64,000 nt of DNA from assembly GCF_036370855.1 (NCBI RefSeq), contig NC_088103.1:10789404-10853403 (forward strand). Direction: 5' to 3'. The translations under genes and the position numbers were made by a program. The notes beneath the pieces were generated by a model. That model had not been told where the DNA came from, searched no databases, and worked only from the letters and a program-made list of their open reading frames with translations. The DNA is from Dromaius novaehollandiae (lineage: Eukaryota; Chordata; Aves; Casuariiformes; Dromaiidae). Positions 12,740-50,694 of the stretch are shown here, piece by piece. How positions within the stretch are numbered: position 1 is the stretch's first letter; the number at the start of each line of letters is the position of its first letter.

Positions 12740-13310
12740 TGCCGCTGTGGCCTCCCCCCGCCCCTGCCTGGGGGCGGGACGGGTCCTCCCGCCGCCGGGG
12801 GCGCCGTTGGGCGCGGGGGGAGGCCGGGCCCACGCCGCGGCAGCCGGGAGGAGCAGCGGGGCCCGCAGGGGGCGGCCGGGGCGGCTCCTCCCTCCTCCTC
12901 CTCCTTCCCCTCCTCCTCCTCCTCTCCAGCCATGGGTAAGTGGCGCCCGGGGCTGCGCTGGGCCGGGGGGCTTTGGGGTGCCCGGCTGCGGGGCGGCTCG
13001 GCTCCGCGGGGCGCGGTACCCGGAGCCGCGGGGGAAGGGGCCGGCGGAGCAGGGGCGCTGCGGCAGCGGCGCCGAGCCCCCCGCTGCGGGGGGCCGCCCG
13101 AGCCCCGGCCCTCACGTAGGCAGAGCCCCGCCGCGAGTAACGGCGGCGTGGCGGAGACGATGTCCGCGGGGGGCCGGCGCGGCCGTTGGGGCGGGCGGCG
13201 GGTTCTGTCCGCCTCAGCGGCCGGCAGAGGCGGCGCCGGGGCTCGGGGAGCGGCGGCGCGGCGTTGCCTGCTCGCTGGCAGGCTGGCGTGAAGGGACGGT
13301 GCTGCGGTCC
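12740..13310 (+). promoter_or_regulatory. RUFY2: CpG-island promoter of RUFY2
   Basis: A sharp GC-rich, CpG-dense block in AT-rich surroundings, with GGGGCGGG/CCCCGCCC Sp1-type boxes near 12755-12780 and no TATA box. It contains the first coding exon. A pyrimidine tract made of CCT repeats (about 12885-12928) lies directly before the ATG, probably in the 5' UTR. The start of transcription cannot be placed from sequence alone. Confidence 0.8.
12932..12935 (+). CDS. RUFY2: RUFY2 coding exon 1 (ATG plus one base)
   Basis: Only ATGG is coding; donor ATGG|gtaagt follows at once. The preceding gccATGG is a near-ideal initiation context. Splicing to 15625 makes codon 2 GCT (Ala). Because only four coding bases are present, the exon rests on splice phase and on the family start MA[10 protein letters not shown]. 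Confidence 0.88.
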
Positions 13311-16300
13311 GTAGGCTTCGTGACTGCGCGTTTTTACCCTTATTTATTTATAATGAGCCTCTGGCTGCTCATGCAGACTGGGAGAAAAATCTCTCTTGGG
13401 TCAAGCCTTGCTAGCGTGGCTGGCGAGGCTAGCGAAATCGCTGTTGCCTACAAATAGTCTCTTCAGCCGCTACTGTTTTGGGTGAAAAAAACTGTTCTCG
13501 GTCCATTTTGTGCCCTGAGTCTACCCCGTCAGGTCCTGGAGCAGCAGCTCTAGAAAACACGCTATGTAAAATCCTAAATCTTGATTTTTTATTTATTTTT
13601 TTTTTTTTTAAGAAGCAGGCAAAGGAAAAGCAGCTGTGTGCAGCTAGATCGCGCTTTGTGATGGACGTAAAATGCAGTTCTGACTCAGAAAGACCAGGCA
13701 AGAGAGCTGACAATTAGAAGGACAGTAGCCGTGGAACTGTGTCTGCGGGGAGGGTCAACCCCAAAAGTCAAAGTTAGGTTGCTTGAAATAAAAGGAATTT
13801 GTAAGATGCCTTTGGGGAAAATAGCCTGGCTGTATGCTGAGGGAGAGCGATCCCACCTGAAACCTGAATCCTGTGACAATGTTTTGAGTTTAGTACTGTC
13901 GGTACCAAATCCAATAAAAAGGGAAGCCAATGTGAACTTTACTAATAGAAATACTCTTGTTGCGAGGCCTCCCCTGTTCTAGAAAGGGGCTACTGATACT
14001 GCATTTTTTAGGGTTGATTCAGTCCCCCATGTTTGAGTGGACAGGTGGTCAAGAAAGAAACTGGGGAACTGTGACAGCTAACTGGGGAAATACTTGCCAA
14101 AGTACTGCCTCTAATTGTCTTCTCTGACAATTTTTAATGTTTTCTGTTGGAGTACTGGTAAATTGTGAGAACATGAAAGTAGTTTTTAAGGCTATCTTGG
14201 GTACATCGTCATAGTAATTGTTTTCTAGAAAAATGAGATAGATTAGGTAATGTAGTGTAGTATTGATATTTAACAGGCAGTTAGAAAAGTGGAAAAAAAA
14301 ACTAGGTTGTCAGTATCTGATACCTAAATACATAAAGCTTTGATATGCAAGAAATCAGACAAATCATGTTGTTGCTGTTTGGGGAATATATTGAGGGATG
14401 AGTCCATCTGTTACAGCGATTCTGTTTTTTTCTTTGGTTTGTACACCAGCATTCCGAGTTCTTTGTGCTTTCCGATGTCTGAGATTAAGTCATATACCAA
14501 TACTTTGATTTGTGGAGGAAGAAGCTAACAGTTTTCCTCAAACACAAATATGTGTATGTGTTTTGACATATGTGGCTCAGTGTATTAAAAAAAGATGATC
14601 TGTGTTCTTCACTTACTTATTGCACTTCCATCTGTTAGTTTTAATCACAGATAGCGGAAACCAGTAAATCTTAACTTTCTTTGCTCCTTCCTAAGTTACT
14701 TTGTTCATGGCGAATAAATAGAAGGTTGCTTTGTTTCAGTTCCATCTTGGCAAAATAGAGGGTGACCTGAAATAAAAAGCTTTATTAAAAATAAAATAAA
14801 CTAAGAATCTCTTGAACACTCTGGATTCAGTAGTTGGAGCTCTAAGAAGAGGAACCTTGTCCATCTTGTCAGATTAGAAAGTTTTTAAAAATCTGGAATT
14901 CTACTGGTCAGACTTAGTCCCCAAATCTAGGTTTTTGTAATGTTACATTTTGTAGGCTTACTAAAAATGTTTTTAAGTGGAACTTTCAAAGCAGCGCCTT
15001 TTGGTATTCTTAAACTTTCCTGCGTAGAAAATATTTTGTAATTATATGAGGAACTTAAATCTCAGTTCTTCAAAAAAACAAATGTGCACATGTACTGTTT
15101 TCCTGGACCTACTCCAGTTCTTACTCATGGAGACTATTTACAACATAAAAAGGAAGGTACATGTTTATGTCACTGTGAAATTAGGGTCACCATAGAAACT
15201 GATTACGTACAAGAGAAGTATGATGTCACGAGTATGAATGCAGCTTTGACATCATGGTAATAGCACTGATTCCTGTTATGCAGCTGAGCTTTTGAGCACA
15301 GCATCAATGCCCATTTTAAGTTAATTCTCAGTTATTGACCACTACCAATATGAACTGAGACAATAAAGTAATAGAGAATTAACATTTTGAGCCTTGTTTG
15401 TTCACTCACCTATTAAAACAATGTAAGAACCGTTAAGAGTGTTTGTTCTGGAGTGTATGTTGTTCTGTAACATGGTTCTGTATAGCACTTACTAAATTAT
15501 TCCTTTGAGTTTCGCTACATTAAGATAAGATAGTTTTCACTGGAACAAGGTGGCCATGAATCATTTTATTATGTTGTGTGTCTTCTAAAACTTGAACCAT
15601 AACTATTTTTCTTTCTTGTCCTAGCTGTCAAAGACCCTACAGCTGTAGAAAGAGCAAATTTACTAAACATGGCTAAATTGAGTATCAAAGGACTCATTGA
15701 ATCAGCTTTGAGCTTTGGCCGTACTCTGGATTCTGACTACCCTCCTTTGCAGCAGTTCTTCGTTGTCATGGAACACTGCCTGAAGCATGGCCTTAAAGGT
15801 GTGGTAACTGTTTTAGCTGCATGTTTCTCATACCAGACTTAACATTTTTCTTTCATTTAATATTTTTCCTTCATTCTTTCGTGTATGAGATAAAATTATA
15901 GTGCCTTATATTGCTTTAAAAAGTAAATATGTAAATTGTCACCTTTTATAATCAATGTCGTCATTTGTAAATAATCCAGGGATTACCAGAACTGCATGTA
16001 TGTTACTCAGGTTTTTAGTTAGTCACACTTTTTGTATTAGTTGTGCTCCAGCAGCAGCAATTTTATGGTCACAGCAAAGTAATTCTTAAGGTAACTTCTG
16101 ACACTGGTGAACTGACCGCTTATTTTGAAGGACGTTACTCCAGTAACTTAAATTAACTCAGATATTGTATTTTCTTTTACTAGTAAGAAAATCCTTTCTA
16201 AGTTACAATAAAACTATCTGGGGTCCTCTGGAACTTGTGGAGAAGTTATATCCAGAAGCTGAGGAAATAGCAGCAAGTGTCAGAGATTTACCTGGCCTCA

Positions 16301-19300
16301 AGTAAGTTGTAATGGTAAAATACAGCAAGAAAACATAGGGCCTGATTTGAGAATTTACAGATGTCTACAAATTTCATTTCACAGTAACGAAGCCTCTGAA
16401 AAGCTAACATATAATATTGAGGGAAAGCATAGGTGATGTGTTTTGTAGGAAACAGCTAAAAATAGTAAGATGCTTGTTTTTGTTTTCTTATATCCATGGG
16501 AGAAGAGTTTTCCGAACGTTGGACACTGTAGAAAGGGATGGGTTACGTAATGAGCAGTTCACAGTCTCGAACTGCGGTAAACATGTGAGTCCAGTCAGCT
16601 AAGGCTGTGTAAAAACGAAAGGTGTAATAGTGAAGGAGAAAGAATTGGGCAGCTCTTCAAATGCTTGTGGTAGGATTCTACAATGTAGGATCCTTCTCAA
16701 ATGTAAATTTCTGCCATATAATACAATCTCCTGCCATCCCTCAGCACTCTGCTTTTGTGTTTAGCATTATAATTGGCTGTACATTGAAATCTGGAAGGGT
16801 TTGGTTATGTTGTGATCGGTTGGTTATCTGACAGTATAAAAGGTTATTTATTTACTGCTTTAGACCTTGTCTGAAGTGCAAAGGTATGTAAATTATTATC
16901 TACTCTTGTGTCAGGCTGGATGAAATAATACCATTTGCCAAGTATCACACTTCCTGCCTTGATACAACATACATTTCTTTTGCATTTAGGTGCTTACTAC
17001 ATTTTGAGTGTGCAGGCCCTAGAAGAGAAGGCTGTAAATGTCTAAGTTTAATTTGTTGGATATTAATGTTAGCCAGTTCGGTACATTCTTATCCTTCTTG
17101 AAATGTCTTTCTAAGATATCACCGAATTTGTAAAGAGAGATGAGTTAAAGCTAGAATTCAGTATGTGTAGACCCAGAGAACTGGATTGGGAAGACAAGCT
17201 TCCCAAGTGACAGACATTTGGTTACTTTTCTCATAGTTCCTCTGAAGACTATAACAGAGTCGCAGAAGGGAGTCGGATTTGTTGTAGAGACTTTACTTCA
17301 GCTAGATGCTGAAGATCACCTTTATGGCACTGTCAGGTTAAGAAGAGTGTGTTTGCAGGATAAAAGCACCACTGTTTAGAATTCTCTCCATGCTGCTAAT
17401 GGCGTGTTGTGTGAAAACAAAGTATGTTTACATACAACAGTGTGTAGAAAGCTAAATGTTCTCACTGTCCAGGCAAAGCGGTTAGTTTTACTGGCAGGCT
17501 CGTGTGCTTTGTCTCCACCAGTTCTTTCCAGGGTCTGCTCCAAGCTAAGCTGAGTTGGTGAAAAAATTTCTGACCTTTTCTGAAAGTTTTGAATTGAAGC
17601 CTAGAATTACGTCTTCACTGACTGTAGCTACTCAACTAATAGTTTAAAATAACTTTTCAGAAATCTCAGTTGTGCAGTTAATAGGCCGATAAAGATAATT
17701 AAGACAGTAAATAAATATATTGTTGGTCTTGGACTGTTTGTCTTCTCCATCCTCCCTTCTCAGGACACCCCTGGGCCGTGCCCGTGCCTGGTTACGGTTA
17801 GCACTAATGCAAAAGAAAATGGCTGACTATCTTCGCTGCTTAATCATTCAGAGAGATCTTCTCAGGTAAACAATTAAGTAGATTTTGTTTAGAGTTTTAT
17901 TTTAGAGGAGTGGTCTCCTGAACAAGCATTATTATATTCTATTTGCTACTTTTTAATGTATCCATAGTGTAGCAAGACCCAGTTTTTGGCCTGTGGGCTG
18001 ATTTTTTCCAGTGCTCAGGGCAGAGGGACCAAACACTGCTGGGTCATCAAGACTGAGGGACAGCTGACAGGTGAAGAGATGATGTTCTGAGGGAAACCTC
18101 ATCATGGTAGAGAGCCCTTCTGCAACGTGCTTGACTATTCTTTCATAGGTGAGGGTGATGGAGAAATGCTCCCTCTTCATTCCTTGGCCATGCAGAATGG
18201 TGGACTAGAAACCTCTGGAGAGGCGAAGAATTCACCCCTACCATATGCATAGTTTACTACCAAGCAACCCTTGCATGGAGGCCTAGTGCCTTGAAATTTC
18301 CTCTCCTTTCACTATTCCAAAACTGGCATTGCTCTGGCTTACTCAGCTTTGCATTCTGTTGTGCTCTGTATAACTTCTTATTTGTGGTGGGGTAATTGGA
18401 GCATAAAGGGAAAAAGGACTTGTCATCTTCATTTCAGTCCTATCACCTATACATATTTAATCCCTTATCTGATTTCTTTAATTTCAAGCATGTATTCGTT
18501 AAAGTCCAGAACTTCTTTTGCACGTGAAGTAAAAAATTCTGTCATTCTTTTTCAGCATGTTCTAGCATTTCTTAACAGCATAAGAATGGTCTGATTCGGT
18601 TTGGCCAAACATCCATCTAATTGAGTATGCTATCCAAGACTGGCTAATAGTAAATGTATAGGGAAGAGTGTTTTTTGTGGGGGAATAAGAGGGGGGGACA
18701 AGATGAGTCTTATCCCCCAAATTGCCCAGCACTCCAGCAGCTTGCGGCTCAGCTTTCTTGAGGCAAAGCTAGTGTCTTTGTTCTTAATAGCCTCTGAGAC
18801 AGACCATTTGCTTTCTAGTTTTAAATATTCATGGTGAAGTCAAGGTATGGGCAGAGCCAGTTAATCTTTAAGAACATTGGAGTAAGGCTAAAATAAGAGA
18901 AGCAATTCAGATTTAGATGTTACTTACTATTAATTTATTACATGTAAATGTAATAAAGTCCACAATGTAACTATTTGATGCAATTCTTCTTATTTAACAG
19001 TGAATTTTACGAGTATCATGCACTCATGATGGAGGAAGAAGGAGCAGTTATTGTTGGTCTGTTAGTTGGGTTAAATGTGATAGATGCTAACCTGTGTGTA
19101 AAGGGAGAAGACCTAGATTCACAAGTAAGTCGATACAGGTTAAATAATGTACACATGGTTCATAGGATTTTTATGTGCAGTAGTTTTTGTTACTCGAGTT
19201 GTGACTGACTAGGACTTCTGCTAGAGACTTTTTACAAAAACTTGCTTTATGTAGTGTAATAAAGAGCTATAAGAGGGTGTCTGCTTTCAGTATACAAAAT

Positions 19301-22300
19301 AAGACTTATTTCAGTAAAATTCTCCTTCCTTTGCAAACTGTTTTGACTTTGAACTTTGTTCAAAGGTAAAACTTGTTTTCTGAAGGTATTGGTGGCTGTC
19401 CAGCTGAGTTTTTACAGTAATTTTGTTTGTGAAAAGTAGTGTAAGGCATGTTCCTCAGAGGAGTCAGAGGAAACAAGCTGTAGTGAGCAAAAAGAGAGAC
19501 TTCTGAAGTATGGTGGAAATCACATCCAGGAGTGTAGATTTAGTGTGTTAGAAAAAAATCTGTTTGATGGAGAAAATGTGTGTATGCACACATGGAGGAT
19601 GATATATAAAAGCTTTTGGAGGAGAGACTTTTTAGAAAAGGTTTGGAAGGAACAGGTAAAAAGAATAAGATAGGATAGGAATGAAACAAGAGAGTGTCAT
19701 ACAAGCCAAGCGAGCTCCAGAAGGAAACAGGTAGATTAGAGAAACTGAAACACATCTATGAAGAGACTGTTAGAGACCAAAAGGAGCAGTTTCAGGAAAG
19801 CAGGCCGGGTTAAGTGCGTTTGTAGAGGTTTATGGATAGAGGTGGAAGCAGAACTCATGGTAATGTTATTTATAGCCCGTATGATTACATTAAAGCTTTC
19901 CTGTTAAGTTGTTGACTAAGCTCAGTCAAATGTATGTCATCTTTTCTTAGTACTGGAAGGAGTTCAGTTCATTGCATGTTGTTCATTTTGTTTCTAAGGT
20001 AAAATTTTTAATTAATATGTGAGAGTATATCTTTTTTAAAAGAATCTTGAAAATGTTACTGTTCAGTTTTTTATGCTTCAGTTAAATCTGCTGAAAATGG
20101 ATCAATCTGAGAAAAGTTGGTGTAACTGAGACTTTAGTAATTACGTAGATACAAAACCATGAATAGCAACAGCAGTTACTTGTATGATATGAAACTGTAT
20201 ACATTTGCTTTCCCCTAGGTTGGGGTGATTGATTTCTCTATGTATTTAAAGAGTGATGACGACATTGGGGGTAAAGAAAGGTATGTTCTCCCCAAATACC
20301 TCAGATTTTGCTTATTAATGAATGATTTCTTGGAGGGTGTCTTCTTCTTTGTAGAGGCAAGTCAGGTTCCCAAGAGATGAAGTTTCCAGATCTAACAGTC
20401 TTGAGCAAGATTGTGCAGTACATTGTTTTGTATTACTAGTTAGCTGGCAGAATACTTGTACTCTGCAGCAAGCCAAAGCAACATCACCTACTTTCTTTAC
20501 CTGATGGCCAGTACTGGAGAATTTCGGGATGGCTGCGTAAAGCCATCTTGCTAAAGATGCCAAGAACCTGTCAAAATAAAAAGCGGGGGGGGGGAAGGAA
20601 AAAGCCAAAGAATCTGCTAACATTTAAGCCCTCGGCTTGGGTTTTAGTCAGTATTTCAAAGAACCAAAGTTATGGTAAGGTAAATGAATGTGCTTTTTGT
20701 TTTGAGACTGTATATATTCTTAACGCTTTACGTGTAATAATTGCTTGTAGTCACAGCATTGGTTATTTTATCTCTCACTACTGTCTTGTGGTAGAAGTTG
20801 CTGACTTGAGCAGTGAGGTAGTGAGATGAAGTTGCTTCCTTTTCTTTTAAACACATTTAACATGGACATTGCGTGTGATAGATATATCTGTTTTCAGTAC
20901 ATAATTGACAATGTCATTTTGTTAAAGTTCATTTTATAATGTTCTTGCTTTAGAAATGTCCAGATTGCTGCAATTTTGGACCAAAAGAATTATGTTGAGG
21001 AACTAAACAGACAATTAAAGTAAGTATTACTTTGCAGTATGCATGTCAGTCCAGGTTTTCGGGTAAAACACCTCTGCTTCCTTTTATACCACGGCTTTGT
21101 GAGCAAGAACTTCAGGGAAACAGGTGAAGATTCTTTGAGGATGCAGCACTGTTGGAAAAGATGCACTCTTTTCTGGAGAGACTGAGGGGAGGAAGTCTTA
21201 ATTTTCATTCTTTTGTTTTTGATAGTTGGAACCTTTAGAGACTGAAAAATACCAGACCAAAATTGTCAAAGGTACTTTAGATTCAGAACTTCACAGGAAC
21301 AAGCTAGGTGTGGATACATTGTCAGAAATATGATTTTAACTGCATTCCACTCAAGAGTTTTGAGCAAGTATTATTGAATGCTCTGGATGAATTCACATGT
21401 TTTTGTTTCTTTGTCTTTCATAATATTTTAGTTTGTAGCTTTAATGATTAGGACCACAACTGAGTGGATTCACCGGTTGCTGGAAACTATTTACGTGTTG
21501 TAGGTTGTGGTTCTCACAGAGACATAATTTTCAGGAAAGCAGCATTAGCTGCTAATATCCTGTCGTAAATGAAGAAAGTCGGTGCCTTTTTCTTTCCACT
21601 TCCTGCTCACTTTGGTGGGTGGAATAAACCTAGTCCATGAGCATGTTTGTTACTGTACAAATACAGGAATAGTGATTGTATCTGAAGAATATTGTATGAA
21701 AGGAAATAATGCAAAGAGGTTAAAAAAAAAAAACCCAAGAACTGCTTCTATAGGATCTGTAGTATAGCTGATCATCTTGGTTCCCTTTTGAAACAAAATA
21801 ATATTTTTTTCATTTTTTAATGTTGATAATCTTGATTATTAGTTACTATATGGCTGCTGTGATGCTACAGGCACTCTGATTTGGAATTTTGCCAGTCACT
21901 GAACAGAAACCTCCAGCAGGACACAGTATCAAGTATACAGTAGTACATCAAATATGAGCCAAATGGAAGTAAGTTAAGGAGGAGAAAAGAATTGCCACAA
22001 GCAAGAACAGTGGTGGTTGTGTAATGTAATGATAGCTATCCATTATCTCAGTGATCCTGTGTTTATTCAGTATGTTCTTGTACACTGGTTTATGCATGAA
22101 ACTATTGCAAACCAGCAGCTGAACAGTTTTCCTCTTTTATTTCAGGTCAGCTGCTCCTCTCCACACATCATAAACTGCATTAATCTCTTCTACCTAGCTA
22201 TTCTTAATGAACTGGTAACTTCCTGAGGGCACCACAGTAGAAATAGGGGAAAAAGGAAAGGGTGTTACAGAACAGGCGTTTTTTTCTGTGCATAAAGGTC

Positions 22301-25300
22301 AGCCTAGAAGAATGTGCTTACAGCAGAAATGGGCAGTCAGCTAATGGAGGAAGCTTGGTCAAAGGATGTTGTTTAATAAGATAGAAAAGCATACAAATAG
22401 AAGGGAATAAGATTCCAAATACTCTTACAAGTAAAAGCCAGAAGCAGCAAAAAAGAGGGAGCCTGAGGATAAATTAAAAAAATGTGGAGGAGCAAATAAT
22501 TTTATAAAAGAAGGTGGATTTTAGAGGAAGGGATGATGGAGCAGTCATGTATGGAACACTGCTGAGAATCTGGAGAAGGGTTTTCATTATATGGGGGAAA
22601 AAAAACTGAGAAGGCTGCAAACTCTTTTGAGAGAACTTCAGAATTTGGATACAGTATAGGATGTGAGGATAGAGGGAGAAATGTAAGGTCACACCCAACA
22701 ATGAGCTAAGGGACAAGGATGACACTGGGAGTTGGGAAGAAGCATATAAATATTCAACAAAGAGACTAATTTTCTTACGCTAGCAAAACCTCAAGCAGTG
22801 TGCACAAACCTGTTACCGCTTACCATTGATCATTTTACTTGTCATTAAAGCTTTTGAGCTTTGTTGAGTAAGTTTTAATATAATTTTGAATAATGGTTTC
22901 TTTCTTTCTTTCTTTCAGTAGCACAGTTAACAGTCTACATGCAAGAGTTGATTCATTAGAGAAATCAAACACTAAGCTAATCGAAGAGGTATTATTTATT
23001 AGAAATGTATAATACGTATTATTTACTCTCAAACACTGTTTTTATAAAATATTTTAATTATTCTAATCTATACAAATACTGCATATTTTCAGATACCTTT
23101 TAATTTGGCTTGAAGAAAAGGTGCAGTAGTTGCAGGGAGTTGAAGTCAGCTTCCCTTGGTAACACGCAGCATTACTAAGTGCATTCTTCAGAACATCACA
23201 ATTTCTCACTGGCAACTCAAACAGAAAAGGTGGCTTTCTTAATACCAGCTGTCAGTCATATTTTGTGCAGTTGACTAGTCCATAATGGATGACACCAGCT
23301 ACTATGTAGAGAGTGAAGGCAGTTCAACAAGCAATTTCTGTTGGTTCTCAGTCTTAACCAAGGGATATTTTCTTGTTCATTTACTGTATGCAGTTTTTAA
23401 GATTTGTCTAACTCTGCTTCTGTATTTATATCTTAGATTTTCACATATATTTGATGCTTGACTAGATTGCATTATACTTAGCTTTATGAGAGAGGGAGAG
23501 ACTTTTTTTTTAACCCAAGCTATTTGAGCAATACCTAATGAAGTGGAAAACTGAAATGTCTTAATTCAGCTCTGTTGATGAGATAGTATTAATGTATCCA
23601 GATAGAGGAAAATTTTTTTTTTTTAATATTAATTCTCAGAGTTTTATGGTTCTTTTACAAGTCTTCATCTCCAACTGTCTGCCTATTTTGATCAGCTGCC
23701 TTATAATCCTGAGAATAAGGTGTATATTACAGGGGAGCAGCTGTAAGGTTTTCTCTTTTGTACTTTTTTTTTAATCTGTGAGGACTTTGCTTATCTAAAT
23801 TGCTGCGTATGATACATTAAGATGTCCAAAAAGAACAGAACTAGATATATTTGAATGAAAAAATCCCCACCCTTTAAGAAGAGCAAAGGGGATTGAGAGT
23901 CTTTAATCCATAAGGAAGCAATGAGAAGAAAGCATAAACTTATTTATCAGACAAAATAACGAAGCATCTTGCATATACATACTGTTGTATAAGAAGAAAT
24001 TGCCATTCCTAAAAATGGGAGCTTTATGTTTTCTTTAAAAAGGAGAATAAAACCTTTGTTTAGTAGACTGAGAGAAGAGGACAGAGAATATCTTGGTCTT
24101 GCATGCATTAGAACATTTTTATTTTTTCTGCAGAAAAGTGGTCATACTTACTTTTTTTTTTTTTTTTTTTTTAGTTAGCAATAGCCAAAAACAATATAAT
24201 TAAACTTCAGGAAGAAAACCATCAATTAAGGAGTGAAAATACACTTATTTTAATGAAAACACAGCATCATCTAGAGGTATGCTAGTTTTACTATATTTAA
24301 AGTATTGTGATTCATTTGAATTGTCATTTGAATGTTCTTACATGGCAACTTTAAGCAAGTAGTAGCTGGGCCAAAGCTAAAGCAACTTATGTTGGGGAAA
24401 GGACATATTAGATCTGGAAAGTTTATAGTGGTGTAAATATATAGAAATTATGTAAGCCTTAGATTACTCTATTACCACATGCAAATTTTATAGCATTTTT
24501 CCATGTTTTCTTTCTTTTTTTCTTCCCTGTTGTGCTTTTTGCTTTAAGCTGTCAGCTATGTCTAAGGACATTTAAGACAATATTATCTAGAAATTTTGTC
24601 AAAACTGTGTGTGTTTTAGTTGGCAAGCTGTGTGTTCTGAGCTGTCTCATTATCTGAACAATATGTCATTAGGAGTAATTGTACAATTGCTTAACAGCTT
24701 GCTTTTTTTTTCTCTTTTTTTAAGCTCTAACTTGTAGCTCCATATATAACTTCCTGTATATTTTACAGGATAATTGGTAAAAGCACAGGTTAAGCAGATG
24801 TTTGGATTGCTTGGGTTATAGAAGATTGCTGTGTATTGAACTGAGGAGGACTATATTGCAGAACAGTTGTTTATTTTGCTACATTTACTCTATGAATTGT
24901 CATTGTAAAACTGATGGGCACATAGCAGAAACAGAAGCTCCTTCCCTGTTTGCGTTGTACTTGGAGACTGTATGTTTTAAGTGGGTTTTTTGCACTACTG
25001 TTAAATTTATCACATGCATTTCTAAACTTGCAATGAAAAAGATAAATTCTTCATATCTTCATAGGTAACTAAAGTGGATGTTGAAGCGGAACTTCAGACA
25101 TACAAACACTCCAGACAGGGTTTAGATGAAATGTACAATGAAGCACGCAGACAACTTCGAGAAGAATCACAGCTTCGACAAGTGAGTACTCTTTTCTAGG
25201 AGTACCCTGCATTTCTAGAAGATTATGTTTGAGAAGAGTCAGTATATAAATATTTCTAGTTTCGCTTTTGCACCAGTCCTCCTGCCCTTAATCCAGAGTG

Positions 25301-28300
25301 TTGCTTCTTTAACTGCATCTTATAAAAAGGCTTTTCAAACACAGCAACCGATACATTAATATTTCTGTAACAATGTTGTTAAAAACATAGAAAACACAGT
25401 TTATTTGAGAACGTTAGAGGTAGGTTGTTAACAGTACTGTATGCGTGGTTTTGTTCTTGTGTTAAATATTTCTTGCAAAAATAGAAGTACTTTAGTTCTA
25501 TTTTTGTAATTAATTATTAGCCAACTCTTTATAAGAAATTATTCTGGTGGTGTTGCATGATGTGAGGTATTTTCTCCCAAGGTTAAAAAAAGAAAAAAGC
25601 AATAGTCACTAAGTACAGGGGCATAGTGTTTCTATAATGGATTTTTTTTTGCATAATTGCGGGGGGCAATAGAGTTTCTGTGGTGGTGAAATAGATGGTG
25701 CGGCAACCCTGTTGGAGTTTAGCTTTTGCCTTTTTCAAAACAGTAGATAAAATGTTGTGTAATTGTTTAAAGATTCTGCATTGCATTGTGTTTCTGTGTT
25801 TTACAGGACATGGAGAACGAGCTAATGGTTCAAGTTAGTATGAAACATGAGATAGAACTTGCCATGAAGTTGCTGGAGAAGGACATCCATGAGAAACAGG
25901 ATACTCTCATAGGCCTTCGACAGCAGCTTGATGAAGTTAAAGCAATTAACATGGAAATGTACCAAAAGCTGCAGGTAAAGGAACAGTCTCTTATTAAACT
26001 GATGAAATGACTTTGATGGAAGAATGAGAGATGCCTTACCCTTTTGTTTAATTAAACACTGCTGTTTCCTTAATTTTTAGTTTCTTTCTGCTTCATAGGT
26101 CAGCTTGCCATTTCAGAATATTCCTGATGCAAACAGGACTTCACACAAAGCAGTTTTTAAGGCAGTCACTTAATGTTATTGGGATTATAGAAGAAAAGAG
26201 CATGAGCAAAACAGTATGGCCTATTAGCATCCCCTATGGAATAGGGAGAGTAATGCTTTATCTAATGACATTCATGCCTGTGTTGTACAAAAAACAGCAA
26301 GAGAACTATAAAAGGTACAGGCAAGTAGTGGGGTGTTAAAGAGGAGATCTGAGCGTTCAAAGTAAGGAAAGGCATTTGGAAAATAGACCTTTTTTAAATC
26401 TGTTAACAGGTTAAGTTTTGTATCAATGTAAGGCTAAAAAATCTTTGGGAGAGTATGGATCACAGAGGCCCAAAATACAGTTAGCAAATGATGAAATGCC
26501 AGGGAAGTTTAGTGGTGAATTATTTATGTAGAAGATAATTTCGATTAATGGAGCAAGCTTTCAAAAGCAGCACCAGAAAATAGTCAAGTTTGTAGCAAAG
26601 TGAAGGGAAAAAGTCAAAGGGCTGCTGCAGAGAGAGAAGTGAGATTGTAGACAGGATGCTGCTTTCTACCTCTAACTGGTGTGTGAGGAAACTGGACTAG
26701 GAGAAGAGAAATAGAAAGACAACTGGAAAGAAAAGTAAGAAGAGACGATTCTTAGGTATGTTATGATCTGTAGTTTTTTGTTTTTCTTTTAAAGCTGTAC
26801 TTCTGGGGACCATAGGTAACCTGGTTTCACTTAATGACATTCAAACCCTATTCCTGGACAATCAAATGAGTAAATTTCCAGGACTGGGCATCTTAGGTCT
26901 TTTTAGTAAGGGTATAATGGGCTACTTAAAAAGATAATCGATGAATTTAAGTTGAGTTGCAAAATGAATAGCTAAGAAAGGAAACCAAAATGAAAAATGT
27001 GTTCTTGTTAAATAGTGTGTACATTTACAAAGCATAAAACTACAAATAAGCTTTAGGCATGACATTTTGTTTAGGTGCTTTTTGTCAGTTACATTTTTTA
27101 AACTGGAATGTTTAAAACAAATCAAAACTTGAAGCCATTTTAATGTTTTTTCCTTCAGACATTGAAGAAAAACCTCCATGAGCTGACAGTGTAATACGAA
27201 CCCACTTCAGTGTTAACCTTTTTTATAATACAGGTTACTGAAGATGCTATGAAAGAAAAGAATGAAATAATTAGTCGATTAGAGGATAAGACCAATCAAA
27301 TTAATGCAACTATGAAACAACTAGAACAAAGGTACAGGTTCATCTTTGTTTTTCTTCATTCATTTCTCCATCCCTTTCCCTTACTGCATTCCTATACAGT
27401 TGCCACTGAAATGTAAATTTCAAGTTGGAAATTGAAAAGGGAAGTTTCTGAAACAGCCACCAGTGGTTTATTGTTTGTTTTTTGTTTCTTGTAATAAACA
27501 GATTTATTTTAATCACAAACTTAAACTTTCATTTTTCTTCCTCCACCATCTTTCCTCTGATCCTGGGTTTTTGTGCTGATATCAACAGCTGTTTTTTAAG
27601 CTGTTTCAAAATTCTGATTCGTTATCATCTCTTTTTTTTCCCTATCTGAATGAAATGCAAAAGAAACCAAAGCATTAATCTTGAATATACTTAAGCATGC
27701 GCTTAATATAAATATTTAATGCCTTCATGGATCACTGCTATATTTGCTGAAGTTACTAAAATTGTCAGTTGCTTTAAAAGTACCGTTATCTTCAATGCTG
27801 TAATGAGTTTTTACACTGAAAGTTTGAGAAGTGAAACACTAAAATTCCAGTGTGTGGATTTACATTATAATTAGAGTACATATTTTGCATAATTAAAATG
27901 CCATTCATATGTATAATTTAGTGGTCTATATGCAACATCGATCTTTTAAATTGTAAAATGTAACATATCCATAAGCCCTGTCATGTTGGTGTTTGACATG
28001 TCGTTTTTTCTTTTAAAATTGATTATGAAAAACATGGTTATGTATTAAAAGATTTAGTGACATGAATATTCTTTTATTGACATCCTTTTTCCCTCTTTTT
28101 TTCTTTTTATCCTTTATCCTTTATCCCAATTTTTGTTTTTACTATTTTACTGCCTTCATCCGTCTCTGATTTTTGTCCACTGCATTCATGAAGTGACAAA
28201 GATCTGTTAACTCAAACTAGGACTATTGCAATGTCATTCATCAAATGTGCCAGCAATGAAGCTCAGCACCAGTATAAACTTGTCAAAGATATATCATTCT

Positions 28301-31300
28301 GAAAGCTCCTCCAGACCTGTTGTGTTTAAAAAATTACTGATAAAATAAAACTTAAGAATTTTAAAATTACAGTTTTAAATATAAAGTGGTATTAGAAATC
28401 TTGCACTGTAACTGACCATAGCTGGGTTCTGTTGTTTTCTGAAGGAACATCATCTCCCATCTCACTTTACCCCTCTTAAAAAAAAAAGAAAAGAAAAGAA
28501 AGTAATTGCATTTTTATTAAGCAAACAGACGCTACTTTTCTAATAATAGTTAATCACTTTTAAATTGTCAAAGTTTACTTTAAAAGGTTAGCTGTCTTTA
28601 CTTTGACTTCACATTATGACGACCATTGTTTCTAATCTAGTGATTTTTCCTTTTCTTTATTGTACTAGTAGATTTAAAAAGTAACCCTTCTGACCAATAT
28701 TTCTCTTCTCCCCTGCTTATTTCTTTCATATTTAGGTTGTCTTTATCTTGGGATAAAGGGGGTTGGTTTTTTTGGTTGTACCTAGCACTGTTTTCATAAA
28801 CAGTGTGGGTTTTCTGTTTAAGCGTTGTGCCAGAACGATATATTAAAAAAAAGGGAGGGGGGGAGAAGGTTAAAAATAAAAGTTCTGTATGTACAGTGGA
28901 AGGATTACAGGGTTTTGGGATAAAACAGCTAAAGCACAATTCTGTTTTGCTGATGTGAAGCAAAATATTTTCACAGAGGTATGTAGTGTTTGGAGCCCAG
29001 ACTTGGGTAGGACTCCAGGCAGGAAGGGTTATGCACTTGGTAAATTTTGTAGCTGTAATTCCTACTTAGAACAGCAGCATCGGGGCAGTTGTAGTAGTAG
29101 CCAGGATTTGCATTTAGGGTGCAGATCCTGAGCTTGTCTAACCTGTTTGTCAGCTAAGTGTCTTACCTCTCTGTGGATATGTCTGCATTGTAGTCATAAC
29201 CTGTGGCTTTGCCCAACCTGTTTTCCCTCCTTCCACCCCTCATTAGGCAGGCTTTACAATCTTATTACTGCTTTGAGTTGCTGCTTGCATGCACTGCTGG
29301 AATGGATGTACTTTACTTGGACATTTAGTCTGCATGCAGCAGAAGCATGCAGGTAAGAGAATGTCGTCGCCCTTGATGTGCTTCCCGCTGTTTCCCTGAA
29401 AGTGCGGAGGGGAAGCTGATCAGGGAGAATCCTTAGTGTTTCAGCAGAAGGGTTTGCAAAGGTGGAGGCGAGACCCAGCAGTACAGGAAGGGCTTCTGCT
29501 CCGTGGTTATATGTTATTTTATTCCTTGGTTTGCAATCAGAGCGAGCCTTTAACACAGGATGGTTTGGGGGGGGGGGGGAGGGGGGAATCCCCTATCCCC
29601 AAAGAAAGACCCAAAACAGAAACACCCAACAAAACAACAGAGTAGACCACGGCAGAAACGGGAGTGTTAACCACCTCATAGTCAATCTATGCAAACAAGT
29701 ATCTGCCTCAGTATCATCTCAGCAGGAAAACCTGCTGTGAACTTAGCACAACTCTGTATTTGTCTGAATCACAGCTGTGCAGTTTGCCTTGGTGCTAGTC
29801 TAGAGGCTGATGCTGTAGCCTGGGTTGGCTAGCATGTTTCTCAGGTAGCAAGAGGAAGATCCCTGTCTGTGTTGGTTGTGGAAACTGCAGTGTAGTTTCT
29901 TTTGTAGTTTAGAGAGGGCTTTAACTTGCTTTGGGTTTCCTGTCTTGTGTAGCTTCCTTCAGCCTCTTTTGCCCTGTGAATTGACTCTGCTTTTTCCCAA
30001 TATTCTCTTCCCTGTACACCTGTTTTGGCCCTCTTTGCACTACAATTACAAATACGACTGGGAATATTGTTAAAACAACTGATACAGTTGAATGGGATAG
30101 TACAAGCTTTATAATGTAGTTTAATTCCAGTCTTTTATCACTTGTTTACTGGCAGTTTTTGGAAACTCGCACTGGTGCAACTTCATCAGTAGAAGCACAA
30201 ACGTAGACAGACTGCCGACTCAGTTTCCTTTTCTTTAGCTGACGTTGGCAGTTGTGAGTTTCTCTCCATTCAGCCAGCTGCTGGGAAGCGAGAACTCAAG
30301 CACTGAGAGCGGGTGTCTCGGGTTTCTCCCACCACTTACCTGGGTGGCCACTTGCAGCGTTTTTTTAAACAAGACTCTTCAGCTGGGGACATTCAGTAGT
30401 ATTTTACAGGCTCTTTTCATCAAGACAGGTGTAGCTGTGGTAACGCAAGTTCCATTTTAGTACCCTTACCTTCGTCACATTACGTCTGTCTTTTTTTGGA
30501 CTGAAGGGATGGTCAAGCAGAGAGAAACCACAATGAATTAATGGATTTCAAGGGCAGGAGAGTGCTAGCTGAAGCAGAAAAACAACCCTTAGAGTTCTAA
30601 AAGAAAAGATTAAATTAAAAAAAACCCTGCTTGATTAATGTTTTATTTATTTTGTCTATAGTATGGAGCTATTTTAACCAGTGTAAGAATGCATTATTTT
30701 TAATACAGATTATTTAAATTTATTTAATAGCGTAACGTAGTTGACGTAGTTCTCTAAATGTAGTGGCACCCTTCAGGCTGTGTCTTGTTGTATTAGGATA
30801 GGTATGTTTTTGCTGTTTGATTGCAGTGCTCTGTGTTCAGCCTTACACCTGAATTGTTTGGGGCTGTTTTTGCACAACACACACTCTGCCCTGTCTTAAT
30901 GGGTGGTTAGTACAAACCAAGTACTTCTACAGGCTTTATTTAAAACAAAACAGAAAAACCTTCCCAAAATAACACATGAACATATGCTAAAAATAAAAAG
31001 CATTAAGGTATATGCTTCAATTCTAAAATATGTATCCTCATGCTTTGGCATCTGTTATTCATGAGCATAAAATAAAAAAAGTATCAAGATTTACAATGAT
31101 TACTCTCTTACTGTATGAAAACAGGAGCTACTTCTCTAGGCATTGTATGGATTTCTCGTTTGAGTTTGTGAGTTTCCCCCAAACTTTGTTTTCATTTAGA
31201 AATGTTTCTATTTCCCCATTTTTCTTTTATTTGTTGTCTTCACCCTCTACACCCTAGTTCTAGCCTCAGTTTTACCCAAAGTTGATTTGAATTACACCAG

Positions 31301-34300
31301 ATTGCAGCAAGCAGAGAAGGCTCAAATGGAAGCTGAGAATGAGGATGAGAAACTTAAAGAGGAATATGTGAATAAATCTGAAAGACTGCAGAAAGAATTC
31401 TCCCAGAAGGAGAAACAGCTGTAAGTATATCTTTCCCCTTTTGAAAAATATACAGCAGTAAACATTCTGCAGTGCAGTATGTCTTGTTACAGGACCAGCC
31501 GGTACAAGCTGGTTGTTGGTAAATGATTTTGAACAAAATGTAAATAGTAGAGATGTTGATACTAGATACTGGCAATGTGGAAGAAAATACGCCATTCCAA
31601 GAAAGTTGTGCTACCTGTGCGCACTTACAAAATGGTGTATAGCTAGAAACGAAAGAACAACAGCAATATTTTTTTGGTGGGAAGTACCAGCTTAACTATT
31701 AGGAAATTATCCCAAGAGGGGAAAAGTATGTAATACGATAATAGTAATCCACACTTTTATCCAAACCCAGAAATATGTAACAATATAAACTTACAGAAAT
31801 CATAAGACTAGTATAACTGATCAGGCTTATGAATAAGGTAAAACCTCAGAAGTGGTTTAACTAACCACTATGCAGGAAATAATAATAAAAAAATCCACTA
31901 GAATCATAAATATAAAAATGTGAAATAAAAGCCAACCTCTGCCCTTTCTCATGTTAAATCCTCAAGCAGGATTTAACCCAGAGAGTGTCCATCCAGCTAC
32001 CTGTTGTGAGGAAGCTATCAGGAATAAAAGCAGTTAACATAGATGTTCTGATTTAAATAAATATCTAAAGTAAAAAGCTCCCTGTAGGGGTAGGTGTTTT
32101 CCTTTTCTGGAAAGACAACAAGTAAAATATTTAAGATGGTGCAAATCTGTGGCACTGCAAGGATTGGAGCGTAAAAATTAGTGGCTTCCAGTCTGATGAT
32201 TAGCCCACCCTGCCTCTCTCATAACTCTGAATGTTAATAAATTTGTTTAACTGCCATGACAAATGTTTACTTTACTACCACAGTCATCTTTACAGATTTT
32301 GGCAAAAGAACAGTTCAGACCCCAACTTTAGAATTCTGCAATTCTGAAACCTCAAGGTCATGTTCACTTCTGATCTTTTCCAACCAGATGCTGAGGTAGT
32401 GTCCCAAAATGTAAGTCTTTCCTTTAAAAATGATTTTGCTTTTAAAACAGGAAAACTAAGTGTGGTTCTCCACCAAAACCCTCGCATGTTTACTGTCAGG
32501 ATTTTTCCTCCTTTATTGCATTGGCAGGATTTAGATCTAGAAGCTTGAACAGTGTGCTCCCATCCTTGTTTTCTCTGTGATGTTCTAAAGACTGACTCTT
32601 CCAAGTGAAATTGCAGCTGGAGTGGATCTTCCATCAGAATAGCCTTAGTTCCTTTAACTGGACTCAAATAGCTATAATTAATAGAATTTAGATCCCTCTT
32701 TATATTGAACCTCAGCTATATAGGAAGCTCACTAAAACCAATCCTCCCTACCAATTCTATTCAAATTTTCATAAGCCTTAGTCTAAAACAGAAGATTAAC
32801 ACCTAAAGATAGAATACTAAATAACTTTTGTGAGCACAAGAGATGAATGTAATCATTCTCTGCATCACCAGTGGCAAGGTGGTTTGTTTGTATTTATTTT
32901 GGAAACACGCTATGTAAATTCAAAGGTGGGGGCTTTCTGTTATGCATGTTTGAAAAGATTCTTTAGGATTTTGTGGTTTATCTACTCTTGGTCATATTGT
33001 AAAGGTCAGCTCTTCAAAATGTGTAGAAGTCCTGATCTTTTAAAATGTACTTTTTTTCAAAGCACTTTCTAAATGGCAGTGTTGTGTTTTCCCTATTACA
33101 CTCATGTCTAAAGTGTTATGATATTGCTGCATTATTTCTTTTTAAAAAATACCAACTGATCGGTTGCTTATTATGCTAGTAGTATATTGCACCCAGAAAT
33201 AAACTCATTTTTAATTAAAAAAAAATACTGTTGTGCACAATGATTGTTTTTTGTTTTGCAATTCTAGGCTTCAGCTGGAAACAGATTTGAAAATAGAAAA
33301 AGAGTGGCGGCAAACCTTAGAAGATGATCTTCAAAAGGAAAAAGAAACTATATCTCAGCTCAGAATAGACACCCAAGAAATAATTAACCTTAAAAAAGTA
33401 AATTCTGCAGTAAAACTAAAACTTGAATAGTAATTTAGAAATTGACTGCAAAGGTAATTTGTGGACTTAGACATGGTATTTTTAAGACTTTCTACAAGTT
33501 GGTAAGAAAGATTAGATTAATCTATTCTGACAAATAGATGAAGAAAATATATTTGGGAAAGAATTGTTCTTCTTTTTACTCTGTGTCTAGTCTTCAGGTC
33601 AGAACTCAGTCCCTTGAATAAGGAAAAATGAAATCCTTATTTTCCATTTTCAGCTGTATTGAAGACTCTGTCTTCTTACGGTGGGCCAGAAAGTGCTTCA
33701 GGTTCTCTCTAACTTGGTATACATGGCTATGTAATGTTGTTTTCTGTGCAATCAATCATTTTTACTCCCTTCCTGGAGAAGACTGAAGAAGCAAAAATGC
33801 TTTGTCTTTTAAGGTCCAAGAGAAATTAATCTTGGTTTGCTGCTGTTAGATTTAGATTTGGGAATCTTAATAGAAGATAGTGTGATGGAACAATTAATCT
33901 TACTTTCTCAGTAAGATCAGCTTTGGTTAGGAATATTTTTCTAGGCAGTAGGCATATACAATATTGTTCCTTTTTGTGAATATTTTTTTTTCTTTTAAGG
34001 AGTTTCTTAAACTTCAGGAGAAGAACAGGCAACTGAAAAGGATATGTCAAGACCAAGAAGCAGCTCTCCAAGAACTGGCATCCAAGCTTAGCGAGTAATT
34101 TCATTTTTCATGATGATTATATTTGTCATATAAAAGTGAATTAAGGAAAAATATAGGATGGTAGTCATGTGAATTACACTGTATAAGACAGTATTACCTG
34201 GCCAGTAATCTAGAAGAAGAAAAAATATGTTTAGTTAGGTCAGGTCTGTTTACATGCATTTCTGTCTTTGGCTGGTGGGCTAGTTATGAAGTCATGTGCA

Positions 34301-36360
34301 ATTATAGGGCTCTGAACAGAAAATCCTGGTTAAAAAGGGCCTGGGAGCATTAGGAGATACTTTGCATGTCTCATGAAGATCCTTCAAAGATTTAAGGAAC
34401 ACACAGAAATGGCTGGCTCAAGTCTTGGCGGGCTTTCCTAAAGAAACCAAGTAGAAGGTAATAGCTCTGGCTTCAGCAGGATGCTTAGCTTTTTATGAGG
34501 ATTGTCTGCTCATGGATTCCTGTCTTTTAGTGATAAAGATTGCGTATATGACAGTCTCATACCATTGTTTGCTGTGAAGTCTTGAGACTATGTAAGAGAT
34601 TATTTTATCAAAAACTCTTCAGACTACAGTGAGCAGTAAGCTCTGAGCACAGCTCTATTGTTATCCTCCACCAGCGTTGTTAAAGTTTCATTTAATGATC
34701 GTTTAAATAGTTTTGCCATGATCAGTGTAGGCTTTCTATGCTCTGTACAGTAGCTTAGTATATATACCATAGCCCCACCAGTTCTGAGAGGGGGGCACTG
34801 GATGACTGCGGGGAGCCTGGTTTCTCCATGAAGCCAGAAGTTTCAATTCCTGTTCTGTACCGGTGCTGTGTGCTGTGCACAGAGTTATGCTGGCACAAGC
34901 TTCTGCCATGCATATAACTCCAAGCACTTTCACAGCCATTCAGAAAGGGTTATGAGCTGTTTAGAGATAAGTTGTTGTCTTTGTTTGTATGGTACTTAGT
35001 ATAGTGGAGAGTGATATTGATTGCATTTCCTGGTTGCTGCTTTAATAAAACACTAGCTAAAAGTTCATAATACTTTGCTTATAACTTTTTAAATAGCTTG
35101 TGCTTTTAAAGTTGTTGACTATAACTGACAACAAAAGTTTGAAATAACATACTCTTATTTTTTAGATCAAAGCTGAAAATAGAAGATATAAAAGAAGCAA
35201 ACAAAGCATTGCAGGTTAGTAGGATTGGGAGGAAGAAGAAACTTTTTTTTGTTCTCTTTATCATATGTATATTTCTAGCACATCTAATTATCTCTTTATA
35301 TCATTGTGTTAGACTTTATCAGATATACATATTCACTATTGATTTTCCTTCAGGGACAGGTTTGGTTGAAGGACAAAGAAGCTACACACTGCAAGTTATG
35401 TGAAAAGGAATTTTCACTTTCCAAAAGGAAGGTAACTCTACAGAAAGATTTTTTTCCAGCTTGTGTACATGTATTATGAGAAAAATGTTAATTGTCTTAG
35501 AGATGCAGCACAGAATGTCAAACTTGGGATGAATGCATAGGTATTTTTGAGATGTTTTTCTAGTTCTTTGATTTGTTTGAGCTTGACTTTGAACACAGTT
35601 GGGTCCTAATCTTAAAAGAAACGCTGCCTTTTGGTGCAGTGCCACAGAAGAACATACTTAAAATTTATTCAGCTTACTTTGTGGAATCATGGTCTCAAGC
35701 ACTTGTCAGCTCTGGCACTGTTACAATTTGCCATATGTGAAAATCTTTCCATTTGACTTTTTTTTATACAGTAGATGAAAAAAGTATGAATTTATTACAG
35801 TTCTAAAATAAACTGTGATGTTAATTTCTGTGCTTAATTAATGCATGCAAGAATCTTTATTTTACCTACTTTTTATGTTAAATCTCACTAGCTGCTTGAC
35901 AGAATCATCCATTCTCTACCAAATATCATTGTTTATATGGTATTTTTATTTGACAAGGTATGTTAGTTCTTCTTAAACAAGGGATTGAAAACAGTCTGCA
36001 AAGCTCATATATGGCTATCTAGGATTGCATTGTAGATTGGTATTTAGATTCTTTTGAAAAACAACACCACACAGCACAAAAAATGGAAGGAATTGGATTT
36101 CACTTTGTTCTGTATATTATAGTCTAGCAGAATCTGATTATCAAGTGTATTTCCAATGTGAATTTTAAATTTTTTCTTGATTTTTTTTTCTTCCTTCCCT
36201 TCTCTCTGTTATTTAGCATCATTGTAGAAACTGTGGTGAGATCTTCTGTAATGCCTGCTCTGACAATGAACTGCCTCTGCCTTCCTCGCCAAAGCCTGTT
36301 CGTGTCTGTGATTCCTGCCATGCGATACTTATACAGAGGTGCTCTTTTAATGTGCCATAA
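12932..36360 (+). CDS. RUFY2: RUFY2, RUN and FYVE domain protein (18 coding exons, complete)
   Basis: RUFY2 is an endosomal effector that binds PI3P through its FYVE finger and small GTPases through RUN and coiled-coil parts. The 18 exons are listed separately; all junctions are GT-AG and the frame is open throughout, giving 606 residues, the size I recall for the human protein. The RUN domain spans about residues 37-170 and heptad-rich coiled coil about 200-533. The FYVE finger (about 537-600) has all eight zinc cysteines (C546, C549, C562, C565, C570, C573, C590, C593) and the PI3P signatures WLKD (537-540), RKHHCR (558-563) and RVC (588-590). The start is ATG at 12932 in a strong GCCATGG context. 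Residue 2 is Ala and the reading begins [12 protein letters not shown]. An alternative terminal exon at 28194 would remove the FYVE finger. RUFY1, RUFY3 and RUFY4 are the paralogues; the N terminus and tail fit RUFY2 best. Confidence 0.97.
12936..15624 (+). other. RUFY2 intron 1
   Basis: 2.7 kb. Its first 370 bases are CpG island and the remainder is AT-rich with no exon I could support. The long open frames in the GC-rich part are a composition effect. Confidence 0.6.
15625..15798 (+). CDS. RUFY2: RUFY2 exon 2, start of RUN domain
   Basis: Acceptor tgtcctag, donor CTTAAAG|gtgtgg. Encodes residues 2-59 and one base of Val60, [19 protein letters not shown] to EHCLKHGLK. The last third is the first helix of the RUN domain. 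Confidence 0.96.
16184..16301 (+). CDS. RUFY2: RUFY2 exon 3, RUN domain
   Basis: Acceptor ttttactag, donor CTCAA|gtaagt. Encodes residues 61-98, [20 protein letters not shown] to DLPGL, with the [13 protein letters not shown] stretch conserved in RUFY RUN domains. Confidence 0.96.
17764..17865 (+). CDS. RUFY2: RUFY2 exon 4, RUN domain
   Basis: Acceptor cttctcag, donor CTCAG|gtaaac. Encodes residues 100-132, [20 protein letters not shown] to [21 protein letters not shown] is the RUN core helix. Confidence 0.96.
18575..18900. repeat. Possible old CR1/L3-type LINE 3' fragment in RUFY2 intron 4
   Basis: The stretch from about 18582 has the order gtctgattcggtt, ccatctaattgagta, gctatccaagactggctaa, which resembles the 3' end of ancient CR1/L3 LINEs (ccatctagtc... 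tatcctgtctc... cagtggcca). The match is from memory and much decayed. RepeatMasker would settle it. Confidence 0.35.
19001..19124 (+). CDS. RUFY2: RUFY2 exon 5, RUN domain end
   Basis: Acceptor atttaacag, donor TCACAA|gtaagt. Completes Ser133 and encodes 134-174, [20 protein letters not shown] to KGEDLDSQ. The [14 protein letters not shown] helix closes the RUN fold. Confidence 0.96.
20219..20280 (+). CDS. RUFY2: RUFY2 exon 6
   Basis: Acceptor cccctag, donor GAAAG|gtatgt; 62 nt. Encodes residues 175-194, [20 protein letters not shown], the link between the RUN domain and the coiled coil. Confidence 0.95.
20954..21019 (+). CDS. RUFY2: RUFY2 exon 7
   Basis: Acceptor ttgctttag, donor TTAAA|gtaagt; 66 nt. 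Encodes 196-216, [20 protein letters not shown] and L, the start of the first coiled coil. Confidence 0.95.
22897..22916 (+). repeat. (TTTC)5 microsatellite serving as splice tract
   Basis: Five TTTC units end one base before the AG of RUFY2 exon 8 and form most of its polypyrimidine tract. Confidence 0.95.
22919..22988 (+). CDS. RUFY2: RUFY2 exon 8, coiled coil
   Basis: Acceptor tttctttcag, donor GAAGAG|gtatta. Completes Asn217 and encodes 218-240, [20 protein letters not shown] and IEE, with leucines at heptad spacing. Confidence 0.95.
24152..24172 (+). repeat. T21 homopolymer at RUFY2 exon 9 acceptor
   Basis: A run of 21 T directly followed by the AG of exon 9. It is the whole polypyrimidine tract and probably varies in length. 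Confidence 0.95.
24175..24276 (+). CDS. RUFY2: RUFY2 exon 9, coiled coil
   Basis: Acceptor is the T21 tract plus AG; donor CTAGAG|gtatgc. Encodes 241-274, [20 protein letters not shown] to KTQHHLE, a classic heptad pattern. Confidence 0.95.
25065..25181 (+). CDS. RUFY2: RUFY2 exon 10, coiled coil
   Basis: Acceptor cttcatag, donor CGACAA|gtgagt; 117 nt, phase 0. Encodes 275-313, [20 protein letters not shown] to EESQLRQ. Confidence 0.95.
25807..25974 (+). CDS. RUFY2: RUFY2 exon 11, coiled coil
   Basis: Acceptor gttttacag, donor CTGCAG|gtaaag; 168 nt, phase 0. Encodes 314-369, [20 protein letters not shown] to EMYQKLQ. Very close to the family sequence. Confidence 0.96.
27234..27331 (+). CDS. 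RUFY2: RUFY2 exon 12, branch point between two isoforms
   Basis: Acceptor ataatacag, donor CAAAG|gtacag. Encodes 370-401, [20 protein letters not shown] to MKQLEQ, and ends in phase 2 (AG). Both exon 13 (31301) and the alternative terminal exon (28194) fit that phase. Confidence 0.95.
28194..28302 (+). CDS. RUFY2: Candidate alternative terminal exon of RUFY2 (FYVE-less isoform)
   Basis: After a long pyrimidine-rich stretch and the AG at 28192-28193, a frame in phase with exon 12 runs for 36 codons to TGA. The join reads ...MKQLEQ then [14 protein letters not shown] and ends YKLVKDISF. An AATAAA follows 42 nt after the stop. The predicted protein is 437 residues: RUN plus the first coiled coils, no FYVE. 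As I recall, the short RUFY3 isoform ends in a similar exon whose reading after LEQ is S-(E/D)-K-D-L. This is seen as phase, acceptor, open frame and poly(A) signal; expression is inferred. Confidence 0.72.
28344..28349 (+). terminator. Poly(A) signal of the short RUFY2 form
   Basis: AATAAA 42 nt after the stop of the alternative exon, with T/GT-rich sequence (GGGTTCTGTTGTTTTCTG) about 75 nt further on. Confidence 0.55.
28350..31300 (+). other. RUFY2 intron 12, distal part
   Basis: About 3 kb without a supported exon. It holds a G13-A-G6 run (29567-29586), two short hairpins (28741-28758 and 28786-28805) and a CpG-poor but GC-richer stretch at about 28.9-30.4 kb. Open frames here have no recognisable product. 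Confidence 0.5.
29567..29586 (+). repeat. G13-A-G6 run in RUFY2 intron 12
   Basis: Nineteen G interrupted by one A on the sense strand, able to fold as a G-quadruplex. Confidence 0.9.
31301..31420 (+). CDS. RUFY2: RUFY2 exon 13, coiled coil
   Basis: Acceptor ttacaccag, donor CAGCT|gtaagt; 120 nt. Encodes 403-441, [20 protein letters not shown] to SQKEKQ. An upstream AG at 31267-31268 would bring an early stop and is not used in this model. Confidence 0.95.
33268..33397 (+). CDS. RUFY2: RUFY2 exon 14, coiled coil
   Basis: Acceptor aattctag, donor AAAAAA|gtaaat. Completes Leu442 and encodes 443-485, [20 protein letters not shown] to IINLKK. Confidence 0.95.
34000..34094 (+). CDS. RUFY2: RUFY2 exon 15, coiled coil
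   Basis: Acceptor tcttttaag, donor AGCGA|gtaatt; 95 nt. Encodes 486-516, [20 protein letters not shown] to LASKLS. Confidence 0.94.
35166..35214 (+). CDS. RUFY2: RUFY2 exon 16
   Basis: Acceptor attttttag, donor TTGCAG|gttagt; only 49 nt. Encodes 518-533, [16 protein letters not shown], the end of the coiled coil. Confidence 0.93.
35354..35431 (+). CDS. RUFY2: RUFY2 exon 17, first half of FYVE finger
   Basis: Acceptor tccttcag, donor AGGAAG|gtaact; phase 0. Encodes 534-559: the WLKD element and the first zinc pair CKLC, ending SLSKRK, the start of the basic PI3P-binding patch. Confidence 0.96.
36217..36360 (+). CDS. RUFY2: RUFY2 exon 18, rest of FYVE finger and stop
   Basis: Acceptor tatttag. 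Encodes 560-606, [20 protein letters not shown] to RCSFNVP, then TAA. It completes RKHHCR and supplies six of eight zinc cysteines and the RVC motif. Confidence 0.96.
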
Positions 36361-50480: not shown

Positions 50481-50694
50481 GAGGGAGGTTAAGATCTGCT
50501 GTAAATTATTAAAAGCAGCCAGGTGTCGAGCGCCGGGGGCGTGAAAGGGGGCCTGGGTCTGTGTACATGCCCGGAGGTGACGAGGCGGGGAGCCGCCGGC
50601 TCCTGCTTCTAGGGAAACATTAACTTCCAGAGCTGTGCTGTCATTCAGAGAAAGTGGAAAGTATAGTGTTGAAAACAACACTAGGCGAAAAAGA

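Follow-up and report, generated by a model that had tools for sequence, protein, structure and literature searches.

Introduction

The closest described counterpart of the element treated here is the short form of RUFY3 (nRUFY3, RUFY3.2, Singar1/RIPX; 469 residues). The element itself is a candidate alternative last exon in intron 12 of RUFY2, located in a 64-kb window of the Dromaius novaehollandiae genome (contig NC_088103.1), where "the window" means the whole stretch of DNA that was analysed. The 12th intron of mouse Rufy3 contains a polyadenylation (poly(A)) site whose use predominates in certain GABAergic neuron types but not others, and the product ending there is without the FYVE-related domain (PMC8299648). 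Regulated polyadenylation gives rise to C-terminally truncated Rufy3 isoforms that are favoured in neural precursors (PMC7236505), and Rufy3 is one of the genes whose isoform use varies strongly from one brain cell type to another (PMC11156538). The 469-residue mouse protein is brain-restricted, and in macrophage lines short RUFY3 is cytosolic and never found on LAMP1 organelles (PMC10354229). The 469-residue human protein, which lacks the FYVE domain and some of the second coiled coil, is cytosolic in HeLa cells (PMC8938451).

RUFY2 has been studied as a FYVE protein. The long form is located on juxtanuclear vesicles (PMC8938451), its RUN domain binds Rab33A, and the protein is nuclear early in development (family review PMC7431699). 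No description of a FYVE-less RUFY2 was found in the excerpts of that review or in those of the other open-licence literature searched; RefSeq and Ensembl lie outside that scope, and an automatic annotation of a short RUFY2 may well exist in either. Here we report that positions 28194-28302, together with a short 3' untranslated region, very probably constitute a true alternative last exon of RUFY2, paralogous to the one that ends short (neuronal) RUFY3. This assignment is made on sequence grounds.

The Candidate Last Exon of RUFY2

RUFY2 lies on the forward strand of the window. Its 18 coding exons were placed by a tblastn search with a RUFY2 probe, and their limits were then fixed by GT/AG borders and the open frame. 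The long product has 606 residues and contains both RUN and FYVE domains in Pfam, with FYVE at residues 537-596. Intron 12 is 3969 nucleotides (nt) long and separates an exon ending in ...QLEQ (27331, phase 2) from one starting with RLxQAEK (31301). Exon 12 ends as CAAAG/GTACAG, the slash here and below marking the exon border.

An earlier note, made from the letters alone, had proposed that this intron hides an alternative last exon at 28194..28349. Its coordinates, phase, peptide, length and signal were right. Following an AG acceptor, the border at 28194 completes a split phase-2 codon (AG+T, serine), which is followed by 35 more codons and a TGA at 28300-28302. The hexamer AATAAA begins 41 nt past the TGA, and both the in-frame stop and the signal stand ahead of the next exon. 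Exons 1-12 spliced to this exon give a product of 437 residues. As had been predicted, it keeps the RUN domain (Pfam E 1.8e-38) and is without FYVE at E up to 0.001. The predicted protein ends in KDISF (28285-28299), the last three residues of which fit the hydrophobic-x-hydrophobic pattern of PDZ ligands, a fit that may be chance. Full-length RUFY2 (LZ-FYVE) has exons 1-12 and the RUN domain in common with the short form; exons 13-18, the later coiled coil and FYVE belong to the long form alone.

Comparison with RUFY3 and RUFY1

A RUN-domain search of the same genome (assembly of 1.47 Gb in 271 contigs) gave 29 matches and led to two paralogues, RUFY3 (C4:12332001-12382000, minus strand) and RUFY1 (Rabip4; C15:17284001-17324000, minus strand). 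These names are based on sequence features and exon matches. The counterpart of RUFY2 intron 12 in RUFY3 is 3716 nt long and contains, between the matching exons, a tail exon at C4:12359447 (minus strand), in which an AG/T border is followed by SEKDLVKQAKTLNSAANKLIQKHH and a stop. The stop (22624 of the reversed stretch) and an AATAAA (22853) are ~226 nt apart, and both precede the next exon. One residue of the 24 differs between this tail and the human short RUFY3 tail.

The likeness to the short RUFY3 tail that the earlier note had suggested is supported by this same-genome comparison. The two tail exons share the corresponding intron, phase 2, the AG/T border and the start S(D/E)KDL(L/V)xQ(T/A)(R/K)T. 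Among the first 11 residues, six are identical and nine are positive in BLOSUM62; over the whole 24-residue RUFY3 tail, identity to the RUFY2 tail is 7/24. The tails differ in length (36 residues in RUFY2 vs. 24 in RUFY3) and diverge after residue 12. The first 12 codons, counting the two bases of codon 1 that come from exon 12, show 15 differences, with four, two and nine at first, second and third positions, respectively. Though the sites are few, this pattern resembles that of selection on the peptide. The likeness extends to the products, as both short RUFY3 (PMC8938451, PMC8299648) and the predicted short RUFY2 keep RUN and lose FYVE.

Similarity was scored without gaps from the border onward, using peptides that begin at an AG in phase 2. 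The comparison set for the RUFY2 tail comprised 13355 such peptides, drawn from both strands of the RUFY3 region (3751 + 3815) and of the RUFY1 region (2863 + 2926). The best match of the RUFY2 tail was the RUFY3 tail, with a score of 35; the next of the 3751 sense-strand peptides of the 50-kb RUFY3 region scored 26, and the best non-partner across all 13355 scored 29. In the opposite direction, 8809 peptides of the window (4393 on the + strand, 4416 on the other) were scored against the RUFY3 tail. The best match began at exactly 28194, again with a score of 35, and the best other reached 24. The two tails are therefore reciprocal best matches. When the RUFY2 tail was shuffled with its first serine fixed, 18 of 200000 shuffles reached 35.

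RUFY1 contains matching exons 12 and 13. Its corresponding intron (467 nt) has no tail exon, the 24 AG-started peptides in it scoring at most 5 and 6 against the two tails. The tail-exon arrangement is thus not common to all RUFY paralogues.

Table 1. RUFY2 features in the window, with the basis on which each was placed.
Feature	Position	Strand	Basis
RUFY2 exons 1-12	12932..27331	+	tblastn, splice borders, frame; RUN domain in both products
Coding parts of exons 1-6	12932-12935, 15625-15798, 16184-16301, 17764-17865, 19001-19124, 20219-20280	+	
Coding parts of exons 7-12	20954-21019, 22919-22988, 24175-24276, 25065-25181, 25807-25974, 27234-27331	+	
Exon 12, common to long and short forms	27234..27331	+	Phase 2 end, donor AAG/GTACAG
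CU-rich stretch and acceptor of the candidate alternative last exon	28074..28193	+	AG at 28192-28193
Coding part of the candidate alternative last exon: 36-residue tail and TGA	28194..28302	+	Frame; similarity to RUFY3 tail SEKDLVKQAKTLNSAANKLIQKHH
AATAAA, candidate poly(A) signal for the short form	28344..28349	+	Sequence motif
Exons 13-18, long form only; later coiled coil and FYVE	31301..36360	+	tblastn, frame

Evidence Against the Exon and Alternative Explanations

Several observations weigh against a genuine alternative last exon, and they are set out here beside the competing explanations. Residues 12-36 of the RUFY2 tail are without clear similarity to RUFY3, and only the first 11-12 residues are demonstrably related. 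The shared first residue says little, as the phase permits only S or R at this position. Mouse Rufy3 intron 12 (PMC8299648) is matched to the present intron by its number rather than by sequence. The dissimilar part of the tail would also fit an exon that serves mainly to lower full-length RUFY2 through premature polyadenylation, with a short protein that has no function of its own; once an intronic poly(A) site is used, the FYVE exons are inevitably lost. The relatedness of the first 11 residues and the lean of the codon differences point instead to selection on the peptide and not on a 3' end alone, and we regard this explanation as unlikely.

Splice-site strength was assessed against 31 acceptors and 33 donors, constitutive sites of RUFY1, RUFY2 and RUFY3 from which RUFY1 and RUFY3 sites with ambiguous borders had been left out. 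The exon 12 donor was the 9th lowest of the 33 (local leave-one-out score). The RUFY2 tail acceptor is weak: two of the 31 constitutive acceptors score lower, an equal or higher local score is reached at 443 of 1506 intronic AGs, and at least eight other AGs within intron 12 are far better (6.7 to 10.0 vs. 0.8). We rejected splice-site strength as support, since it speaks against the exon rather than for it. The RUFY3 tail acceptor is likewise weak, with 3/31 constitutive sites lower on the same score.

Such an acceptor could be taken as the mark of a decayed relic, in which the ancestral exon was kept by RUFY3 and the RUFY2 copy fell out of use with its frame open by luck. The diverged second half of the tail would agree with this, as would the lack of any short RUFY2 in the excerpts of the open-licence literature searched. 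In RUFY2, however, a recognisable peptide, the open frame, the AG, the phase and the poly(A) signal have all survived since the paralogues split, whereas a neutral intron would be expected to lose such features in the course of vertebrate evolution. The differences also lean to third codon positions. Moreover, the RUFY3 acceptor is weak despite the short Rufy3 reported in mouse. We consider a relic to have little probability.

Both weak acceptors lie behind pyrimidine-rich stretches. Over the 120 nt upstream of the tail exons, the pyrimidine fraction is 0.78 in RUFY2 and 0.68 in RUFY3, and the highest values among the 31 constitutive acceptors are 0.70 (one) and 0.68 (two). Counts of CU-type motifs are 13 in RUFY2 and 12 in RUFY3; the constitutive maximum is 14, with just one of the 31 above 13. 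A weak acceptor behind a CU-rich stretch in both genes suggests that the exons may be under regulated, perhaps neuronal, use through a repressor of the PTBP type.

The open frame itself is unremarkable. RUFY2 introns contain 1563 AGs, and after 170 of them at least 36 codons are open in phase 2 before an intronic stop (frames that reach the intron end were dropped from the count), and 19 of these 170 also have AATAAA or ATTAAA within ~100 nt past the stop. An open frame with a stop and a poly(A) hexamer was accordingly rejected as stand-alone evidence, being common in introns. It is the similarity to the RUFY3 tail that exceeds chance; frame, stop and hexamer alone fall within it. Even here a further reservation applies: when all intron-12 peptides were compared with each other (240 x 268 = 64320 pairs), the true pair came second, at 35 vs. 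36 for an unrelated, hydrophobic-rich pair. That an intronic frame began like the RUFY3 tail by accident is nonetheless hardly credible, for although such frames are common after an AG and one unrelated pair scores higher, each tail is the other's best match, the two lie in corresponding introns and in the same phase, and very few shuffles reach their score.

Additional Searches and Neighbouring Features

Retrocopies of a short RUFY2 or RUFY3 mRNA were sought in the same genome among best candidates only, so that their absence is not proved by these results: the RUFY2 tail returned only itself (one candidate scored), and RUFY3 exon 12 joined to its tail returned those two RUFY3 exons and RUFY2 exon 12 (three scored). 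A scan for stray vertebrate DNA in bacterial and viral contigs used six patterns from the RUFY2 protein, all of them outside the tail; it matched 14 stretches, of which none was confirmed. A degenerate pattern of the tail occurred in one viral and 28 prokaryote stretches of the bacterial and viral collections. When the end of exon 12 plus the tail was compared by tblastn with the retrieved loci, 13 besides the window matched at E up to 1; the best match (0.011) and the others amounted essentially to the searched pattern. Among solved structures, 16 distinct sequences matched at E up to 10 (best 0.7); 14 were SNAP-25 and none was named RUFY.

Elsewhere in the window, positions 49084-50541 have 77% G+C and a CpG observed/expected ratio of 1.0 between AT-rich flanks. 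This segment probably represents the CpG-island promoter of an adjacent gene, and the long open frames on both of its strands are probably spurious.

Origin, Proposed Mechanism and Significance

The shared intron, phase, border and peptide are best accounted for if both tail exons descend from a single alternative last exon in a common ancestor of RUFY2 and RUFY3. We infer that this exon is most likely older than the RUFY2/RUFY3 split and has been kept since. The split dates to the early vertebrate genome duplications. On this view RUFY1 would either have lost the exon or have branched off before it was gained, and its survival in RUFY2 suggests that it is used.

In the mechanism we propose, the alternative exon would be transcribed and the weak acceptor behind the CU-rich stretch used, with recognition of the poly(A) signal in intron 12 leading to an early transcript end. 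This choice may be regulated, perhaps in neurons and perhaps by PTBP-type repression at the CU stretch. The resulting 437-residue protein would join RUN and the coiled coil as far as exon 12 to the 36-residue tail, which replaces the later coiled coil and FYVE. As it has no FYVE, short RUFY2 would probably be cytosolic and could act as a competitor of the long form. It would be expected to keep its RUN partners and to uncouple them from membranes carrying phosphatidylinositol 3-phosphate (PI3P). The competing, non-endosomal role suggested in the earlier note would follow by analogy with short RUFY3, which is described as cytosolic in HeLa cells (PMC8938451) and macrophage lines (PMC10354229).

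More tentatively, and with somewhat less than even confidence, we suggest that a regulated switch between a membrane-bound form with FYVE and a cytosolic form without it had a single origin in a RUFY ancestor and was kept in RUFY2 and RUFY3 under shared CU-tract control. Short RUFY2 would then represent a so far undescribed antagonist, possibly neuronal, of the Rab33A- and PI3P-linked functions of RUFY2. If kept in two paralogues, the switch would provide a conserved case of coding intronic polyadenylation whose age can be dated. If a FYVE-less RUFY2 is made, knockouts, antibodies, expression data and constructs for this gene would need to be read at the isoform level, as has been found for RUFY3.

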